Shown here in pieces: positions 4,254 through 11,477 of a DNA stretch of 64,000 nucleotides. This stretch comes from Actinomycetospora sp. NBRC 106375. Lineage in GTDB: Bacteria > Actinomycetota > Actinomycetes > Mycobacteriales > Pseudonocardiaceae. Below the pieces are notes generated by a model. That model saw nothing but the letters and a program-made list of their open reading frames with translations. It did no database searches and was not told the origin of the DNA. How positions within the stretch are numbered: the first letter of the stretch is position 1; every line of letters starts with the position of its first letter. A program made the translations under genes and the position numbers. Location of the stretch: the NCBI RefSeq assembly GCF_030269665.1, contig NZ_BSTS01000020.1, positions 1 to 64,000 of the forward strand, given 5' to 3'.

Positions 4254-4315
4254 GGCGATGACGCTAGGCCCGGACGGGCGCGTCGGCGCGTCCGGGCGCG
4301 GCGGAGCGCCGGGAA

Positions 4316-4365
4316 TGAACGGCGCTCTCGTTGCCTCGGAAGCAGCGAGAGCGCCGTTCGTTCGT
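4316..4365. terminator. Long perfect hairpin between the GH114 gene and the DUF427 gene
   Basis: The left arm GAACGGCGCTCTCG pairs perfectly with CGAGAGCGCCGTTC. The stem extends inward through TTGC/GCAG with a single G-T pair and closes on a short CTCGGA loop. No T-run follows on either strand. It lies just after the stop of the GH114 gene and upstream of the DUF427 promoter, so it may stop the exopolysaccharide operon. Its arm and loop design recurs twice in the oriC spacer. Confidence 0.7.
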
Positions 4366-4389
4366 CACTCACGGCCCCGGAGTCACGGC

Positions 4390-5181
4390 TCACGGCGCCT
4401 GGGCGGGACAGGTCTCCACGGGGGCGTCGAGGACGATGTTCTTGCGGATCGAGCGGAACCCCGGCGGCGGGGGGCAGAACGACGCCAGCGGGAGGTCGTA
4501 CTCCACGTGGTAGACGGGCTTGCCCGCCGCGACGAACGGGGCGAGCGCGTCGCACTCGCGGTACTGGGCGCACTGCTCGTTGACGGCGAAGTCGAAGTCG
4601 CCGACGAGGTCGTCGACCTGGTCGAGGTCGTTCTTGAGCCCGACGGCCAGGCCGCGCTCGTGGGCGAGGCGGGCGAGCATCAGGTTGAACGCCAGCTGGT
4701 CGCCCTCGCCGAGCGGGAAGCCCGTGGGGTGGGTGTAGCCGTCGACGTTGTCGGGCTCGACGGCGTCGAAGCCCTTCTGCTTGCAGAGGTCGAAGCGGGC
4801 CGCGAGCCACGGCTCGAGGACGTCGGTGCGCCGGACGTCGAGCCAGTACTCGTCGGGCCAGTCCTCGAGCTCCTGGCCGCGCACCTCCGCGGGGAGCGCC
4901 CCGGCGTCCGGCCGCCAGTCCTCGACCGCACCCGCGTTGACGTAGCAGACGACCTGGCGCCCGTCGGCGTGCAGCGCCGCCACGGTCTGCGCCGAGGTGC
5001 CGAAGAGGTCGACGTCGTAGGTGGCCGCGTCCACCGACGTGTCGACGGGACCTTGGAGCTGGTACTGCCACGTGCTGCCCGCCGGCGCCCGCACCGCGCC
5101 GCCGGCCCCGGCCGGCGACCCGCACGCGAGCGCCATCATCAGCCCGCCGCACACGACGGCCACGAGCCCGGCGCGCGTCAC
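4390..5181 (-). CDS. GH114 endo-alpha-1,4-galactosaminidase (Ega3-like), probable lipoprotein
   Basis: 263 residues. A signal sequence (residues 1-20) ends in LACGS, a lipobox-like site, so the enzyme is probably secreted and lipid-anchored. The GH114 core includes YDVDLF, VVCYVNAGAVEDWRPD, then FDAVEPDNVDGYTHPTGF and VGLKNDLDQVDDL, and ends with FAVNEQCAQYREC. The aspartate of EPDNVDGY and the glutamate of NEQC are the expected catalytic acids. Known family members cut alpha-1,4-linked galactosamine polymers, including galactosaminogalactan and Pel. The GTG start overlaps the stop of the spherulin-4 gene (GTGA). It is the last gene of the five-gene operon. Confidence 0.87.
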   Translation of the reverse strand: MTRAGLVAVVCGGLMMALACGSPAGAGGAVRAPAGSTWQYQLQGPVDTSVDAATYDVDLFGTSAQTVAALHADGRQVVCYVNAGAVEDWRPDAGALPAEVRGQELEDWPDEYWLDVRRTDVLEPWLAARFDLCKQKGFDAVEPDNVDGYTHPTGFPLGEGDQLAFNLMLARLAHERGLAVGLKNDLDQVDDLVGDFDFAVNEQCAQYRECDALAPFVAAGKPVYHVEYDLPLASFCPPPPGFRSIRKNIVLDAPVETCPAQAP

Positions 5182-5804
5182 GGGCCCACCCAGGTCGCCA
5201 GCGCGCCCCACGGGTTGGGCAGGGCCGCAGCCGTGGCGTAGGCGTGCGTCGCGCCCAGGGCGGTCGCGCGGTGCAGGGTCCGCTCCTCCTCGCCGTCCGG
5301 CACCCCGTGGACGAGGTGCCAGGTGGCGGCGGGTCCGGGCGGGTCCGGGGTGTCGAGCGCGGCGTGCGCCGACCACGGGCCCTCGAAGGTCACGACGACC
5401 GACGCCAGCCGCAGGTAGCCGGGGTCGGGGCGCACGCCCGGGTTGAGGATCAGCGGTCCGTCGACGGCCGCCGCGAGGCGCGCGTAGTGGCCCAGGTGCT
5501 CGGCCGACGACGTGACCTGGTCGGCGAAGACCGCCTCGACGCCGTGCAGCCGGCGGTACGCCGCGACGTCGGCGAGCACCTCGGAGAGCGGGCGGCGGGC
5601 GTAGTCGGTGTCGACGTAGCCCGCGACGAGGCCGGGCAGGTCGCGGACCGCGCTCCGGTAGGCGGCGTCGCCGCTGCCGGGCCCGGAGTCGGGGTTGACC
5701 ACCACGACACCGAGCCGGTCGCCGAGGGCCCGGAGGCGCTCCCAGTCGGCGGCCTCGCGCCGCGGGTGGAAGTAGGCGGGCACGGCCAAGCTCATGACGC
5801 TCAT
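5178..5804 (-). CDS. Spherulin-4 family glycoside hydrolase (GH135, Sph3-like)
   Basis: 208 residues with the family pattern: VPAYFHP at the first strand, VVVNPDSGPG near residue 38, GYVDTDYARRP near residue 65 and VEAVFADQVTSS near residue 94. Fungal Sph3 cleaves galactosaminogalactan and is needed to make it. No signal peptide is visible, so it would act in the cytoplasm unless exported by another route. The usual acidic pair after the VF strand reads D-Q instead of D-E, which could reduce or change activity. The start at 5804 overlaps the stop of the membrane-protein gene (ATGA); an in-frame ATG at 5795 is an alternative. Confidence 0.85.
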   Translation of the reverse strand: MSVMSLAVPAYFHPRREAADWERLRALGDRLGVVVVNPDSGPGSGDAAYRSAVRDLPGLVAGYVDTDYARRPLSEVLADVAAYRRLHGVEAVFADQVTSSAEHLGHYARLAAAVDGPLILNPGVRPDPGYLRLASVVVTFEGPWSAHAALDTPDPPGPAATWHLVHGVPDGEEERTLHRATALGATHAYATAAALPNPWGALATWVGP

Positions 5805-7243
5805 CGGTGCCGCACCGGGATCCCCGCGGAGCGCCGCACGAGGACGGCGAGGACGACGAGCAGCACGGCGCCGGTCCCGAGGTGCCAGAGGATGGCCGCG
5901 GTCCCGGAGGTCGGCACGGCCTGGCCGCGCACGATGAACGCCGCGAGCCCGGCCACCGCCGCGGACAGCAGGGCGAGGACACGGTCGCCGCGGCCGAGTG
6001 CGGTGGCCACGGCCGCGGCGAAGAGCGCGGTGCCGAGCACGACGTAGTCGGCCCCGAGCAGCACCAGGCGAACGTCCCACCCGGGCATCGCGACCGCCAC
6101 CGCCGCGCCGTAGAGCAAGGTCGTGCCCGCGAGCGCCACGACGTAGAGCAGGTGCGCGCGCAGCGCCGCGTGCCGCGCCCCGCGGGCGAACCGCGGTACC
6201 GAACCGGTGGCGGCGAGCAGCGCCCCGGTCCGCTCCCGGTAGCGGACGAGGAGCAACTCCGCGATGCCCGTGGTCAGCACCAGCGGCAGGGCGAGCGACG
6301 TGAGCGAGAGCGGCATCGGGTCGAACCCGGGGTCGAGCAGCTGCTCGAGGGCCGGGAACAGCACGAGCACGGCGACGAAGAGCCCGAACCCGACCTGCGC
6401 GGTGGCGTGCGTCCACGCCGACCGGGGCAGCGCGGAGACCGGTCGGCGCCCGCCGCGGGTCGCGACGAGGGCGAGGACGGTCGCGAGCACCACCGACGCG
6501 GCCGGCCAGAGGAGGTCGCGGGCCGGGACGCCGCTCGTGGGGTTGGCGAGCGCGCTGGCCGGTCCCTCGTGCGGGAGGAGCAGGCCGAGCACGGCGCCGA
6601 CCACGGCCGGGAGCAGCGCCGCGAGCAGCCAGGCCTCCCGCCCGCACAGCAGCAGGGCCGCCGCCGCGAACAGGTAGGCCGCCTGGCCGGTGAGCAGCAC
6701 GACGGTGACGAGGTCGACCGACATCGTCGCCGTGAGCACCAGCGCGGCGAACACCGCCGCGACCGCCAGCACCAGCGCGACCCCGGTCCCGACGAGCAGG
6801 GCGCGCCGCAGGAAGCGCCGGGCGGCGGGCCGGTCGAGGTTGCCGAGGTACGACCAGGCCACGCTCGCCACGCCGTACGCCGCCGCCCAGGCCAGCACCA
6901 GCCCGCTGAGCATGAGCGTGGCCGACACGGGGTCCTCGCTCGGCAGCAGCGCGAGCGCGACCACGGCGGGCACGGCGTAGAGCACCCCGCGCGCCGGGAG
7001 CCAACGGGGGTCACCGGCGGTGGACCACGTCCGGTGCGAGGGCGCGACGGCGGGCTCCGAGCGCGGGCGGCGCCGGTCGGCGACGAGCCACCCGGCGAGC
7101 TCGAAGACGTCGGCCGCGCCGTAGCGCTGCGACGCGACGCGGTCGTCGACCCCGGCACCCTCGATCACGACAGCGGCCTCGGACCGGGTCGTCGACGAGC
7201 CCGCGGCGTGCGCCACCGCGGAGTCGACACGCTTCACGCCCAT
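5801..7243 (-). CDS. Polytopic membrane protein of the exopolysaccharide operon (PelG-like position)
   Basis: 480 residues. After a soluble N-terminus of about 95 residues there are roughly eleven to twelve hydrophobic segments, from RGVLYAVPAVVALALLP to the C-terminal AVLLVVLAVLVRRS. I see no catalytic motif. Its place directly after a PelF-type glycosyltransferase, with ATGA overlaps on both sides, suggests that it is the export channel or membrane partner of that enzyme, as PelG is for PelF or as the membrane half of fungal Gtb3 is for its glycosyltransferase half. That role is inference from position; sequence similarity to PelG is not evident by eye. Confidence 0.65.
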   Translation of the reverse strand: MGVKRVDSAVAHAAGSSTTRSEAAVVIEGAGVDDRVASQRYGAADVFELAGWLVADRRRPRSEPAVAPSHRTWSTAGDPRWLPARGVLYAVPAVVALALLPSEDPVSATLMLSGLVLAWAAAYGVASVAWSYLGNLDRPAARRFLRRALLVGTGVALVLAVAAVFAALVLTATMSVDLVTVVLLTGQAAYLFAAAALLLCGREAWLLAALLPAVVGAVLGLLLPHEGPASALANPTSGVPARDLLWPAASVVLATVLALVATRGGRRPVSALPRSAWTHATAQVGFGLFVAVLVLFPALEQLLDPGFDPMPLSLTSLALPLVLTTGIAELLLVRYRERTGALLAATGSVPRFARGARHAALRAHLLYVVALAGTTLLYGAAVAVAMPGWDVRLVLLGADYVVLGTALFAAAVATALGRGDRVLALLSAAVAGLAAFIVRGQAVPTSGTAAILWHLGTGAVLLVVLAVLVRRSAGIPVRHR

Positions 7244-8715
7244 CCCGGGCCCACCTCCTCGACCGGGCGCGCCACCGCGTCGCGGTGCGGCTCGAGGCCG
7301 TGCGGGGCCGGGTCCTCTTCCGGCGCGGCGTGGTGGGCGTAGATCGCCCGGAGGTCGGTGAGGAAGCGGTCGAGCGTGAACCGCCGCCGTGCGTGGTCCT
7401 GGCCGGCGCCGGCGAGCGCCCGGCGCAGCGAGGCGTGCGTGAGCAGCTCGACGCAGGCGTCCGCGAAGGCCTCCACGTGGCCCGCGGGCACCACGATCCC
7501 GCCGGGGCCGACGGCCTCGGCGACGCCGCCGACGTCGGTGGCGACGACCGGCCGCCCGCACATCCCGGCCTCGATGACGGTCAGCGGCAGGCCCTCGGAG
7601 ACGCTCGAGAGCACTACGACGTGGCCGGCCTCGAACGCCCGGCGCACCGGGCTGACCGGCCCCTCGAACACCACGGCGTCGTCGAGACCGAGCTCGGCCA
7701 CCAGCGCGTCGCACGAGGCCCGGTAGCCCTCGTTGCCCGCCGGCACGCCCCCGAAGAGGCGCAGCCGGGCGGCCGGCACCGCGAGACGGACCCTGGCGAA
7801 CGCCGCGAGCAGCGTGTGGAGGTCCTTGAGCGGGTCGATGCGCCCGGCGTAGACGAGGGTCGGGGCCTCCGGCTCGGTCGCGAGCGGCGCGAGCCCGGCC
7901 GGGTCGACGCCGTTGGGCAGCAGCCGCACCGCGTCGGGGCGGGCACCGCCCTGCAGCGCCCAGCGCGCGTTGAAGCCGCTCACGGGCAGGACCGCGTCGG
8001 CCCGCCGGTAGCCGAGGCCGGTGAGGGCGGCGTAGAACCCACCGACGGCGGCACGCTCGGGGCGCCCGGCGCCGGACCGCCGGGTCGCCATCAGCCGTTC
8101 CCGCAGGTAGACCCCGTGCTCGGAGAGCAGCACGGGGGTCCCGTGCTCCCACGCGGCGCACAGCCCGAGCAGCATCGCGGGCCCGTTGACGGTGCAGTGC
8201 ACGAGGTCGGCCCGGGGCGCGGGGAGCTGCAGCGGCCGCAGGAAGTGCTCGACGAGGTCGGTCACGGCCAGCGCGTCGGCGAGGGTCGGGGTGAGCTCCG
8301 GCAGCGCCGAGGTCACCTCGACGACGAGATCGACGGCCTCCTGGCTGCGCAGCGCCTCGGTGAGGTCGACCGTGCGGGCCATGTCGCGCAGCGTCCGCAC
8401 GGCGTGCTCGAAGTCCCGGGGGGCCGCGGCGCCGCCGAGCAGCATCGCGTCGAGCAGGTCGGTGTAGGTCCGGAGGAACCGGCGCCCGGGCCTGCGGGGC
8501 CGGCGGGGACGGGCCGGCTCGGCCCACAGCCCGATCCGGCGCACCGCGGCCACGTTGGGGGGCACCGGGTAGGTCGCCGTCTCCCGCCCCGATCCCGACA
8601 GGGCCACGACCTCGAAGTCGATCTCCGGGAGGCTCCGCACCAGCTGGTCGCACCAGTCGCTCACCCCACCCGCGTGGATCGGGTACGTCCCCTCCGTCAC
8701 CAGCGCGACCTTCAC
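7234..8715 (-). CDS. pelF: PelF-type GT4 glycosyltransferase
   Basis: 493 residues, cytoplasmic. The N-terminus carries the PelF hallmark GTYPIHAGGVSDW (residues 9-21). The middle has SEHGVYLRERL, also typical of PelF. The C-terminal GT-B half has VYAGRIDPLKD, an E-x7-E-type stretch at SEGLPLTVIEAG and the GRPVVATDVGG nucleotide-sugar block. PelF polymerises a galactosamine-rich polysaccharide from UDP-N-acetylhexosamine. The GTG start at 8715 overlaps the stop of the deacetylase gene (GTGA), and its own stop overlaps the start of the membrane protein. A chance RRSGAG stretch near residue 212 is not one of the mini-inserts. Confidence 0.9.
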   Translation of the reverse strand: MKVALVTEGTYPIHAGGVSDWCDQLVRSLPEIDFEVVALSGSGRETATYPVPPNVAAVRRIGLWAEPARPRRPRRPGRRFLRTYTDLLDAMLLGGAAAPRDFEHAVRTLRDMARTVDLTEALRSQEAVDLVVEVTSALPELTPTLADALAVTDLVEHFLRPLQLPAPRADLVHCTVNGPAMLLGLCAAWEHGTPVLLSEHGVYLRERLMATRRSGAGRPERAAVGGFYAALTGLGYRRADAVLPVSGFNARWALQGGARPDAVRLLPNGVDPAGLAPLATEPEAPTLVYAGRIDPLKDLHTLLAAFARVRLAVPAARLRLFGGVPAGNEGYRASCDALVAELGLDDAVVFEGPVSPVRRAFEAGHVVVLSSVSEGLPLTVIEAGMCGRPVVATDVGGVAEAVGPGGIVVPAGHVEAFADACVELLTHASLRRALAGAGQDHARRRFTLDRFLTDLRAIYAHHAAPEEDPAPHGLEPHRDAVARPVEEVGPGWA

Positions 8716-10667
8716 GGGGCCACTCCTCCGATCCGTTGCTCCCCGGCGACCGGGATCCAGCCCGAGCGCGTGGTGCCGTAGGGCTCGCCGAACGCCCCGT
8801 CGAGCGACGGCGGGACCGTCACGGGCACGTCCACGGGGTGATCGGCCGCCACCGTCACCACGCCGTCCTGCACCCAGGCCCGCGTGCTCCCCGCGGCGGC
8901 GGCCCAGGCGGCCTGGCGGGCGAGGACCTCCGCCGACTGCGTCATCGTCGGCACCAGCAGCGGGCGCGCCTCGGTGTAGAGCGCCCGGTAGGAGCCGAGG
9001 ACCTGCTCGAGCACCGGGTAGAGGGTCCGGTCCTCGGTGAGCTGCGGCTGGTGCACGTAGTGGGGCCGCGGGTCGTCGGCGAGCACGTGCCCGAGCGCCT
9101 TCGTCGCCTCCATCGGCACGATCTGCGCCAGGAACCCCGCCCGCGGGTCGCCGGCCGGCACGGGCGGCACGCAGCCGCCGTCGGTCTCGCAGGTGCCGTC
9201 GCCGCCGTCGGCTCGGGAGGTGTGCGACCAGTTGTACTGGTCGACGGTCTCGGCGAACGTGGCCGTGTCGAAGTCGAGGTCGATCGGGTGGCGCGGCACG
9301 GTCCGCGCCCCGCCGATCGGGCGCTGGCCCGCCTCCTTCGACGCGTCCGCCGCGACGCTGCGGATCCCCTCGTCGTCGAGCGCGCCGGCCAGCCCGGGGT
9401 TGTCGTCGGGCATCTCCTCGTCGCCGCGCAGACCGCTGTGCTCGCCGGTGACCAGCTCGGAGGGGTCGATCGGGAGGCCGACCTCGCGGGCGAACCCGAT
9501 GTTGCGCGCCACCTCGTCGTCGATCACCCGCTCGGGCACGTACCGCGTCCAGCCCAGGATCGGCACGGTGGCGCAGCGCCAGGGCAGGGCCTCGTAGTCG
9601 CGGACGCAGCCGAGGTACTGGTGCGACCAGGTGTGGTTGATCCAGCCGAAGGCGTCCCGCCGCGCGAGCAGCGCCGCGAGCAGGGGGTCGTCCGCTCCCG
9701 GCGCCGCGAGCCGCGACCCCGCGCCGTTGAAGGCCAGATCGAGGCGGAAGTCGTGGTCGCGGGACCAGCCCGCCGCCGCGTCGACGTCGGCCGGGGTCAT
9801 GCGGATGGTGGGCGCGGGCGGCACGGTCGGCGGGCAGTCCGCCCCGTAGGCGCAGTGCGCCCCCGCGACCCAGCGGGCGTCCGGGAGGAGCACGTCGTCG
9901 ATGTGCACGGCGAACCAGGCGCGCCGCATCCCGAGGTGCACCCCGCGCGTCAGCCACTCGACGAGACCGGGCGCGAGCGCGGCGAAGGGCTGGGAGCCCG
10001 GGGCGTAGGAGAAGGAGAGGCCGAGCTCCTCCCGGCCCCCGGTGCGCAGCACGCCCATGAGCGGCCCGCGCCGTGCGCCGTCGGGCGAGCTCCCCGTCAG
10101 CAGCGGGGTGTAGCCGGCCAGCGGGGTCCCGATCTCGACCCAGGTGTCCCCGCCGATCGGCACGTCCCCGCGCATGTCGCCGAAGCCGTCGGCCCGGGCC
10201 GCGTCGGTGAGCCGGGCGATCCCGCTGTCGAGCCGGCCCGACCAGCCCGCGCTCGGGCTCGGCTCGGCGAGCCCGGTCTGCGCGGTCGCGCGCACCGTGG
10301 CGTTCAGCTGGCGGAGCCGGAACTCGCGCTCGACGTCGTGGAGCACCGCGAGCTCGGCGGGGGCCAGCTCGACCGGCGAGTCGCCGGGCAGCACGACGGC
10401 CTGGTAGCGGGCGTGCGGGACCGCGTCCGGGACGGTCAGCGCGGCGCGGTCGACGGGCCGGCGGGCGGGGTCGGACAGGTCGACGACATCGGTCGGCACC
10501 CCGCTCTCGGTGAGGGCCTCGAGCACGGCGTCGACCTCGGGGCTGCCGTTCTGCACGACGAGCACCCGGAGGTCGACGCGCGGCCCCGCGGCGGAGGCGG
10601 GGGTGGCGACCAGGACCGTCGCGGCAAGCGCCGTGAGCAGGGGCAGCAGGACACGACGAACGCCCAC
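8712..10667 (-). CDS. Secreted polysaccharide deacetylase, Agd3/CE18-like
   Basis: 651 residues with a signal peptide (VRRVLLPLLTALAATVLVATPASAAG). The N-terminal 200 residues form a domain rich in beta strands, as in the carbohydrate-binding part of Agd3. The catalytic part shows AVHIDDVLLPD, with a paired aspartate, and INHTWSHQYLGC, the H-T-W-S-H metal site of NodB-like deacetylases, followed by GEHSGLRGDEEMPDDNPGL. Fungal Agd3 removes acetyl groups from galactosaminogalactan. The GTG at 10667 is preferred over an upstream start at 10775 because GGGGGGTGAC stands just before it and it opens the signal peptide. First gene of the operon. The CE18 label is my reading of the pattern and needs a profile search. 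Confidence 0.75.
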   Translation of the reverse strand: MGVRRVLLPLLTALAATVLVATPASAAGPRVDLRVLVVQNGSPEVDAVLEALTESGVPTDVVDLSDPARRPVDRAALTVPDAVPHARYQAVVLPGDSPVELAPAELAVLHDVEREFRLRQLNATVRATAQTGLAEPSPSAGWSGRLDSGIARLTDAARADGFGDMRGDVPIGGDTWVEIGTPLAGYTPLLTGSSPDGARRGPLMGVLRTGGREELGLSFSYAPGSQPFAALAPGLVEWLTRGVHLGMRRAWFAVHIDDVLLPDARWVAGAHCAYGADCPPTVPPAPTIRMTPADVDAAAGWSRDHDFRLDLAFNGAGSRLAAPGADDPLLAALLARRDAFGWINHTWSHQYLGCVRDYEALPWRCATVPILGWTRYVPERVIDDEVARNIGFAREVGLPIDPSELVTGEHSGLRGDEEMPDDNPGLAGALDDEGIRSVAADASKEAGQRPIGGARTVPRHPIDLDFDTATFAETVDQYNWSHTSRADGGDGTCETDGGCVPPVPAGDPRAGFLAQIVPMEATKALGHVLADDPRPHYVHQPQLTEDRTLYPVLEQVLGSYRALYTEARPLLVPTMTQSAEVLARQAAWAAAAGSTRAWVQDGVVTVAADHPVDVPVTVPPSLDGAFGEPYGTTRSGWIPVAGEQRIGGVAP

Positions 10668-10780
10668 GTCACCCCCCGGTCCACCGCTCGATGCCGGATC
10701 ATCCTGTGGCCGGCCGTGGGCGGCGCCCAAGCGATCTGCCCGGGTCGGGGGACACCGGTCACTCGATGGCGTCACGGTCC

Positions 10781-10811
10781 GTCAGGGAGGAGCGCCCCTC
10801 CTGCCCCTGAC
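10781..10811 (-). terminator. Imperfect hairpin downstream of yqgE
   Basis: GTCAGGGAGGAG pairs imperfectly with CTCCTGCCCCTGAC around a short CGCC loop. It lies 20 bp after the yqgE stop and more than 100 bp before the exopolysaccharide operon, so it may end the yqgE transcript. No T-run follows. Confidence 0.5.
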
Positions 10812-10829
10812 GCCACAGGGGTGAACGGA

Positions 10830-11477
10830 TCAGTTGCGGCGGGGCTCGCTCACGTGGGTGGCCAGGAGGGCCAGCGGCACGCCCTGGCGTCGGAGGACCC
10901 CGCCCCACAGGTCGTAGCCGGGCGGGGCGAGGACGTCGTCGGGCAGGGCCGGGACGACGTACCAGTCACCGCGGCCGATCTCGCCGTCGAGCTGGCCGCG
11001 GTCCCACCCCGAGTAGCCGGCGAACACCCGCAGGCCGCGGACGCGCGGGGCGAGGTCGTCGGGGTCGCCGTCGAGGTCGACGAGCGCGACCGGGCCCCGG
11101 ACGCCGACGACGCCGCCCGTGCTGGCCGGGTCCTCGCCCGTGCGCAGGGCGGCGAGGCACAGCGCGGTGCGCTGCTCGACCGGACCGCCGACGAAGACCG
11201 CGTGCGGGGTGGTGGTGTGGGGGCCCCACGTCGGCAGCACGTCGGCCACCGAGACCTCGCTGGGCCGGTTGAGCACGACGCCGAGGGTGCCGGCCGGGCG
11301 GTGGTCGATGACGAACACGACCGACCGCGAGAAGTTGGGGTCGGTGAGGGTCGGGGCGGCCACGAGAAGCGTCCCGGCCTCGACCTCGGCCTCCTGATGT
11401 TCACCCACACCACTGGCCACGAGCCCCATCGTCGCACCGCCGCGCGCCGGGGCGGCAGGCACGGTGGAGGTGGTCAC
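10830..11477 (-). CDS. YqgE/AlgH family protein
   Basis: 215 residues. The family blocks are all present: GTLLVAAPTLTDPNFSRSVV, then GTLGVVLNRPSE, FVGGPVE, LRVFAGYSGWDRGQLDGEI and GDWYVV. YqgE/AlgH proteins are small cytoplasmic proteins of unresolved role, first linked to alginate regulation in Pseudomonas. The N-terminus is about 30 residues longer than in most members, so the true start could be the internal ATG at residue 17. It is divergent from the MFS gene. Confidence 0.9.
   Translation of the reverse strand: MTTSTVPAAPARGGATMGLVASGVGEHQEAEVEAGTLLVAAPTLTDPNFSRSVVFVIDHRPAGTLGVVLNRPSEVSVADVLPTWGPHTTTPHAVFVGGPVEQRTALCLAALRTGEDPASTGGVVGVRGPVALVDLDGDPDDLAPRVRGLRVFAGYSGWDRGQLDGEIGRGDWYVVPALPDDVLAPPGYDLWGGVLRRQGVPLALLATHVSEPRRN

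Follow-up and report, generated by a model that had tools for sequence, protein, structure and literature searches.

A predicted exopolysaccharide operon of the galactosaminogalactan/Pel type in Actinomycetospora sp. NBRC 106375

The fungal gene cluster for galactosaminogalactan (GAG), an adhesive sugar polymer with positive charge, comprises uge3, gtb3, sph3, ega3 and agd3, and one of its products, Sph3, is reported in the available text of PMC11356417 to be needed for GAG synthesis in Aspergillus fumigatus and to carry a membrane segment near its N-terminus. Bacterial agd3 operons are described in the accessible main text of Bamford et al. (2020, Nat Commun; PMC7229062), according to which Agd3 homologues occur in 45 bacterial species and 30 of 35 tree species have agd3 in or near operons; a cytoplasmic glycosyltransferase is present in every operon along with a membrane protein with multiple spans, GH114 accompanies them with high consistency, and some Actinobacteria add Spherulin-4. 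The same text supports the view that fungi acquired the genes from bacteria by transfer; PMC4817252, as available, contains this idea too. The Gram-positive Pel operon, pelDEADAFG, is a further relative, and the accessible main text of the paper describing it contains no mention of Agd3, Sph3 or spherulin (Whitfield et al., 2020; PMC7112168). Here, we describe a five-gene operon in a 64,000-nucleotide stretch of the genome of the soil actinobacterium Actinomycetospora sp. NBRC 106375 (contig NZ_BSTS01000020.1, positions 1–64,000), hereafter called the window, which is a well-supported new example of the bacterial operon kind already reported, with some unexpected details. A first-pass annotation of the window had described a bacterial operon mirroring the fungal GAG cluster; such an operon is not a novelty, the same components having been in print in 2020 (PMC7229062, accessible text).

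The five genes all lie on the minus strand, from 10661 to 4390, with successive overlaps of 4, 10, 4 and 4 bases:

8712..10661, minus strand: CE18-like (Agd3-like) deacetylase with a CBM87-like N-terminal region, 649 amino acids (family profile against Agd3)
7234..8715, minus strand: PelF-type GT4 glycosyltransferase, 493 amino acids, a predicted cytoplasmic polymerase (NF038011, DUF3492)
5801..7243, minus strand: polytopic membrane protein with 12 long predicted helices, 480 amino acids, a predicted exporter partner (AlphaFold2 model and Foldseek)
5178..5804, minus strand: Spherulin-4/GH135-like protein, 208 amino acids (matches to PF12138 and Sph3 5c5g)
4390..5181, minus strand: GH114 endo-alpha-1,4-galactosaminidase-like predicted lipoprotein, 263 amino acids (matches to PF03537 and Ega3 6oj1)

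This set shares the deacetylase, both hydrolase families and the glycosyltransferase with the fungal GAG cluster; the GH114 protein is very close to Ega3, and six Agd3 active-site residues are kept in the deacetylase. It differs from that cluster in having no epimerase, in encoding the GT4 and the membrane protein as separate genes, and in a Spherulin-4 protein without the N-terminal membrane segment described for Sph3 (PMC11356417, available text). With the bacterial agd3 operons it shares CE18, a cytoplasmic glycosyltransferase, GH114, a multi-pass membrane protein and Spherulin-4, the last of which is found there in some Actinobacteria (PMC7229062, accessible text). A PelF-type GT4, a multi-pass membrane protein and a deacetylase are shared with the Gram-positive Pel operon (PMC7112168, accessible text), whereas no PelG was detected in the window genome, the window deacetylase is CE18-like, and GH114 and Spherulin-4 are additional.

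The annotated unit of five overlapping genes with assigned families was confirmed by the overlaps of 4–10 bases, by the GC content at third codon positions (GC3) and by family or profile matches. GC3 is 0.97–0.98 across all five genes, which are therefore coding-like even in a block of 76.6% GC; chance open reading frames of GC-rich DNA are ruled out by GC3, the family matches and recurrence in relatives. The flanks have 73.5% and 76.1% GC, so base composition gives no sign of foreign origin. Alternative GTG starts of the deacetylase are possible at 10667 and 10775, and a scan for promoters and terminators found no promoter-like site and a single terminator-like match, which was not used. The window also holds dnaN, a RecF/RecN/SMC-type protein at the expected place of recF, gyrB, gyrA and a ParA-like ATPase, in agreement with the location near the replication origin proposed initially.

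Three of the enzymes were assigned by profile and structure-sequence comparison. The GH114 protein matches Pfam PF03537 at 277.2 bits (cut-off 27) and is strikingly similar to Ega3 (6oj1; E = 5.9e-54), whose two catalytic residues, Asp and Glu, are conserved in it (the pair D189/E247 in the available text of PMC12054363), which upholds its assignment to GH114; its N-terminus is a leader with a lipobox-like motif, and no second GH114 was found in the window genome. The GT4 protein scores 165.8 bits against NCBIfam PelF NF038011, above the cut-off of 100, and 173.7 bits against Pfam DUF3492, so that the PelF-type label is likewise borne out. Two Pseudonocardia GT4 proteins (L002, 8669–9161; L003, 11371–11815) have a long, repetitive, proline-rich C-terminal tail that the window GT4 does not have. 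For the deacetylase, the proposed Agd3/CE18 relationship did not emerge from the single-sequence search, in which Pfam and NCBIfam gave no significant match (best E = 0.21, an unrelated family) and the comparison with Agd3 (6nwz) reached only E = 0.098; it was obtained with a family profile and from all six catalytic residues. A profile of eight sequences (A1) matched 6nwz at E = 2.1e-8 and one of 12 relatives (A4) at E = 1.3e-33, in two stretches (28–269 and 337–650) that cover most of the length, including the CBM87 and CE regions. Among the 12 aligned members, six match Pfam Agd3_CE and five match CBM87. Residues D255, D256, H343, H347, R457 and H537 align with D377, D378, H510, H514, R613 and H668 of Agd3, which are named as catalytic in the accessible text of PMC7229062; five of them are invariant in the alignment, and R457 is nearly so. 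By sequence comparison, the link to Agd3 is thus firm once relatives are included in the profile. The N-terminus of the deacetylase resembles, by eye, a signal peptide with an AxA end.

The membrane protein gave no significant match in Pfam, NCBIfam and PDB sequence searches, the PDB returning only a designed protein at E = 3.3. An AlphaFold2 model built from five sequences (pLDDT 72.9) contains 12 long helices, consistent with the polytopic protein annotated, and Foldseek ranks 1–27 with this model were all MATE, MurJ or WzxE chains (probability 0.95–1.00; TM score, query-normalised, 0.39–0.51). The model therefore suggests a MOP-type exporter with a MATE/MOP-like fold. PelG is usually placed in the MOP exporter class. 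By sequence, however, the protein is not recognisable as PelG: PF16933 was found neither in it nor in the window genome, which is 97% complete, and hhalign comparison of its family with two PelG sequences gave a probability of 2.5% (reversed control 0.1%), with a shallow PelG side and an uneven other side. PelD (PF16963) had no match in the window genome, which is a weak test since the controls likewise gave none; no PelE gene is present among the five, although no profile search was aimed at PelE; and no PelA-type family was matched by any of the five proteins in Pfam or NCBIfam. The initial distinction from the usual Pel operon is supported by the absence of a detectable PelG from the genome.

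Two other genomes of the phylum (G206 and G177) have a PelG gene directly preceding a CE18 gene. A true PelG (470.9 bits) is flanked in G206 by a GT4 belonging to the same family and by a deacetylase that itself passes Pfam Agd3_CE (86.3 bits); since this GT4 precedes PelG, PelG occupies the place of the membrane protein, which lends positional support to the analogy between the two. The G206 locus (L099, 4471–9264), in which the GT4, PelG and Agd3_CE deacetylase genes are contiguous and a Spherulin-4 gene with a leader and a DE motif lies on the opposite strand, is an arrangement intermediate between Pel and GAG-type operons.

Some unexpected features concern the Spherulin-4 protein. It matches Pfam Spherulin4 (PF12138) at 95.5 bits (cut-off 30.2) and Sph3 (5c5g) at E = 7.7e-7. 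Its active site was compared with residues that we take to be D166, E167 and E222 of Sph3, numbers that were matched to the chain by offset. One published passage, as available, prints the pair as Asp196/Glu222. In the window protein the equivalents of D166 and E222 are kept, and that of E167 is Q. The same D and later E are retained in 28 of 28 operonic Spherulin-4 proteins (L099 and L104, which lie outside the operon order, are excluded), whereas the residue after D, E167 in Sph3, is Q in 18, R in nine and C in one. In all 28, a start codon lies next to the barrel, between 12 residues before and two residues after the first profile-matched residue, and a protein begun there has no room for a signal peptide. 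Some have longer in-frame starts (e.g., L090 at −20) of moderate hydropathy, up to 2.17 in L090, with which the sequences are also compatible. When the 150 residues upstream were examined in GH114 proteins as a control, a hydrophobic leader was present in 21 of 22 and a lipobox-like motif in 17. Seven of 30 Spherulin-4 proteins reach the hydropathy of GH114 leaders, but by eye within the first strands of the barrel itself (L001 and L002 are left out of this comparison owing to a spurious upstream match). By this N-terminus test, the membrane-anchored extracellular location of Sph3 finds no support in the operonic proteins, which, having no visible export signal, are best read as cytosolic; any role there is a guess. 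The annotated spherulin-4/GH135 identity accordingly holds at the level of family match and the D166/E222 equivalents, but because an export signal is not visible, the protein is not a straightforward Sph3 counterpart. The Spherulin-4 relatives beside CE18 in G177 and G206, encoded on the opposite strand, have a leader and keep the DE pair of Sph3. L104, outside the operon order, has a possible leader and a DQ pair, so the altered motif also occurs beyond the operonic copies.

Other, related Actinobacteria have the gene set too. A search with the single deacetylase found matches in two of 150 genomes of the order and two of 18 of the genus (the window genome is counted in both), the nearest named locus being that of A. 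succinea, with a deacetylase 91% identical. With profile A1, matches were obtained in 45 of 390 genomes of the family (22 at E < 1e-200) and 13 of 396 of the phylum (seven at E < 1e-200), the remainder being weaker or partial in each case. Of 42 loci examined, nine weaker ones stand outside the operon tallies and 33, counting the window, contain a CE18 gene of full length, which is adjoined by GT4 in 30, by the membrane protein in 28, by Spherulin-4 in 28 and by GH114 in 21. Copies were removed (L075 = L004, L076 = L005, L106 = L003 and L004 = L003), and a full-length match in G836 and fragments in G698 and G804 fall outside the examined loci. L085, L093 and L095 run off their contigs; the membrane protein is missed in L085 and in L074, which has an unmatched 458-amino-acid frame at that place; and GH114 is missing from four cut-off operons (L067, L085, L094 and L095). 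Spherulin4 is itself rare, occurring in seven of 296 phylum genomes, six of which, including the window genome, also have a CE18 match (the exception is G189).

The annotation had noted that a UDP-sugar epimerase is missing from the operon, which is correct; two galE genes above cut-off are encoded elsewhere in the window genome (C3 and C15). A GalE-like gene lies directly upstream of the operon in Pseudonocardia L002 and L003 and divergently in L005, and the two such proteins tested scored 170 and 166.6 bits, under the galE cut-off of 262.3. In L002 (1744–4092) and L003 (4323–6698), the GalE-like gene is preceded by a conserved frame of ~620 amino acids together with a lipoprotein-like frame of 165 amino acids. 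In 18 of 30 operons, a cassette of a LegB-like 4,6-dehydratase, a sugar-1-phosphate nucleotidyltransferase and a second SDR is inserted between the membrane gene and Spherulin-4; three tested dehydratases scored 443–456 bits against TIGR04180 (cut-off 475). The cassette is partial in L094 (two of three genes) and L095 (one gene before the contig end), and six operons, including that of the window, contain none of its genes; that of A. succinea likewise has none. We take this variation to mean that operons of this family produce more than one polymer, with a galactosamine polymer being best predicted for the window branch. For the window operon that prediction is plausible, though the cassette found in 18 of the 30 operons weakens it.

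Given these data, the locus is probably a mobile GAG/Pel-type operon for exopolysaccharide synthesis. On the gene identities, catalytic residues, co-location and conservation established here, the enzyme activities and the polymer can be predicted as follows. The PelF-type GT4 would polymerise uridine diphosphate (UDP)-N-acetylgalactosamine (GalNAc), perhaps with galactose or another sugar, on the cytoplasmic side, from UDP-sugars presumably supplied by the GalE encoded elsewhere in the genome. The 12-helix MATE/MOP-like protein would be the membrane partner of the GT4 and export the chain, from which the secreted CE18-like deacetylase would strip N-acetyl groups to yield a cationic polymer, and at the cell surface the deacetylated polymer would be trimmed by the lipid-anchored GH114. 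Unlike the extracellular fungal Sph3, the Spherulin-4 protein would most likely stay in the cytoplasm beside the synthase and there clear nascent acetylated chains or set their size. Roles as proposed here are assigned in the accessible texts of PMC7229062 and PMC11356417.

Several observations weigh against this explanation. The window deacetylase by itself matches neither Pfam Agd3_CE nor CBM87, and its AlphaFold2 model (five sequences) had a pLDDT of 36.7 and was not used; the membrane model is of moderate confidence, with a best Foldseek E of 1.6e-3 and none ≤ 0.001. Full-length CE18 genes stand alone, without an operon, in L087 and L091, and a GH114 match is missing from five uncut operons (L069, L070, L072, L073 and L086). 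The window operon has no sugar-nucleotide gene, and, with 18 of the 30 operons carrying the dehydratase set, the family as a whole may not make plain poly-GalNAc. The last point leads to an alternative that we regard as unlikely, namely that the product is a cationic relative of this polymer with a different chemistry, containing for instance a 6-deoxy amino sugar, and that the window strain has lost the cassette or encodes it at another place; the insertion of the dehydratase, nucleotidyltransferase and second SDR in most operons favours it, but the cassette is missing from the operons of the window and of A. succinea, and in three loci of Pseudonocardia a GalE-like gene is found instead.

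A true Pel operon whose PelG, PelD and PelE have diverged strongly would account for the PelF match above cut-off, for the MOP-like fold modelled for the membrane protein and for the adjacency of PelG and CE18 in G206 and G177; it is rather improbable, given that PelG was detected neither by Pfam in the protein or genome nor by the shallow profile comparison, and that none of the five proteins matches a PelA-type family. Still less credence is given to a degradative or defensive operon, in which the secreted GH114 and CE18 enzymes attack GAG or Pel of competing fungi or bacteria and the GT4 and membrane protein are unrelated. Both secreted enzymes could act on a foreign polymer, and Sph3 is reported to digest biofilms (PMC11356417, available text), yet 28 of the 33 loci combine the deacetylase with both the GT4 and the membrane protein, for which a purely degradative set would have no need.

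Taken as a GAG/Pel-type synthesis operon, the locus is a further complete and compact case among the bacterial operons from which the fungal GAG cluster is proposed to derive. With its five genes, it is also a small system for testing what Sph3 does. Should the Spherulin-4 protein be truly cytosolic, the clearing of exported polymer by Sph3 need not be the ancestral function. A wider scenario, which we offer tentatively and consider possible but doubtful as a whole, is that the Sph3 homologue of the actinobacterial operons works in the cytosol together with the PelF-type synthase, has an altered active site and acts on the nascent chain before export; that the membrane-anchored extracellular hydrolase of fungi was derived from an inherited cytosolic protein; and that the family splits into a GalNAc branch (window and Pseudonocardia) and a 4,6-dehydratase branch with a deoxy-sugar polymer. 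The accessible main text of PMC7229062 does not mention Pseudonocardia, Actinomycetospora, Amycolatopsis, a dehydratase or a genomic island, and its passages on Spherulin-4 and on signals contain nothing on a missing leader or altered motif. In the literature searched, which covered subscription journals poorly and included some sources in part, no earlier description was found of the missing leader or altered motif, the dehydratase cassette or the empty site described below. Searches for PelF with GH114 in actinobacteria found no report, and those for spherulin-4/GH135 and for Actinomycetospora exopolysaccharide surfaced nothing relevant to bacterial operons.

Mobility is suggested by the genomic site. 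In both Actinomycetospora carriers (two of 18 genus genomes), the operon lies between yqgE and a DUF427 gene, and this shared site points to one gain. The genes yqgE, DUF427 and leuS are in the same order in 15 of 15 sister genomes examined (leuS is cut in L132), and no match to any of the five proteins was found at that site in any of them; the comparison comprises 15 of the 16 other genus genomes, G160 being left out. An operon ancestral to the genus is therefore not favoured, the site being operon-free in all 15 sisters, although widespread loss could in principle explain the pattern too. Comparison with the empty sites suggests movement of the unit as a single block. A possible boundary is marked by the following repeat:

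4313..4363, no strand: inverted repeat with 25-nucleotide arms, between GH114 and the DUF427 gene (repeat search)

It closely resembles a hairpin in the operon-free yqgE–DUF427 spacer of sister L127; the repeats in the other five of the six spacers compared are all shorter, and in A. succinea the spacer does not show the hairpin. The exact insertion point may lie between the yqgE stop codon and this hairpin, a tentative placement because the likeness is limited to the L127 spacer and does not extend to A. succinea.

Some loci depart from the common arrangement. In L088 (G839, 4330–11008), three tandem CE18-type genes, the middle one shorter, precede an otherwise normal operon. L097, L103, L104 and L105 form a diverged branch in which two tandem CE18-like genes are followed by GT4, the membrane protein, a nucleotidyltransferase and an SDR, without an operonic Spherulin-4. 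In L101 (G451, 7984–9939), stop codons split the deacetylase into several pieces, indicating that it is probably decaying, while two adjacent GT4-type frames and the membrane gene look open.

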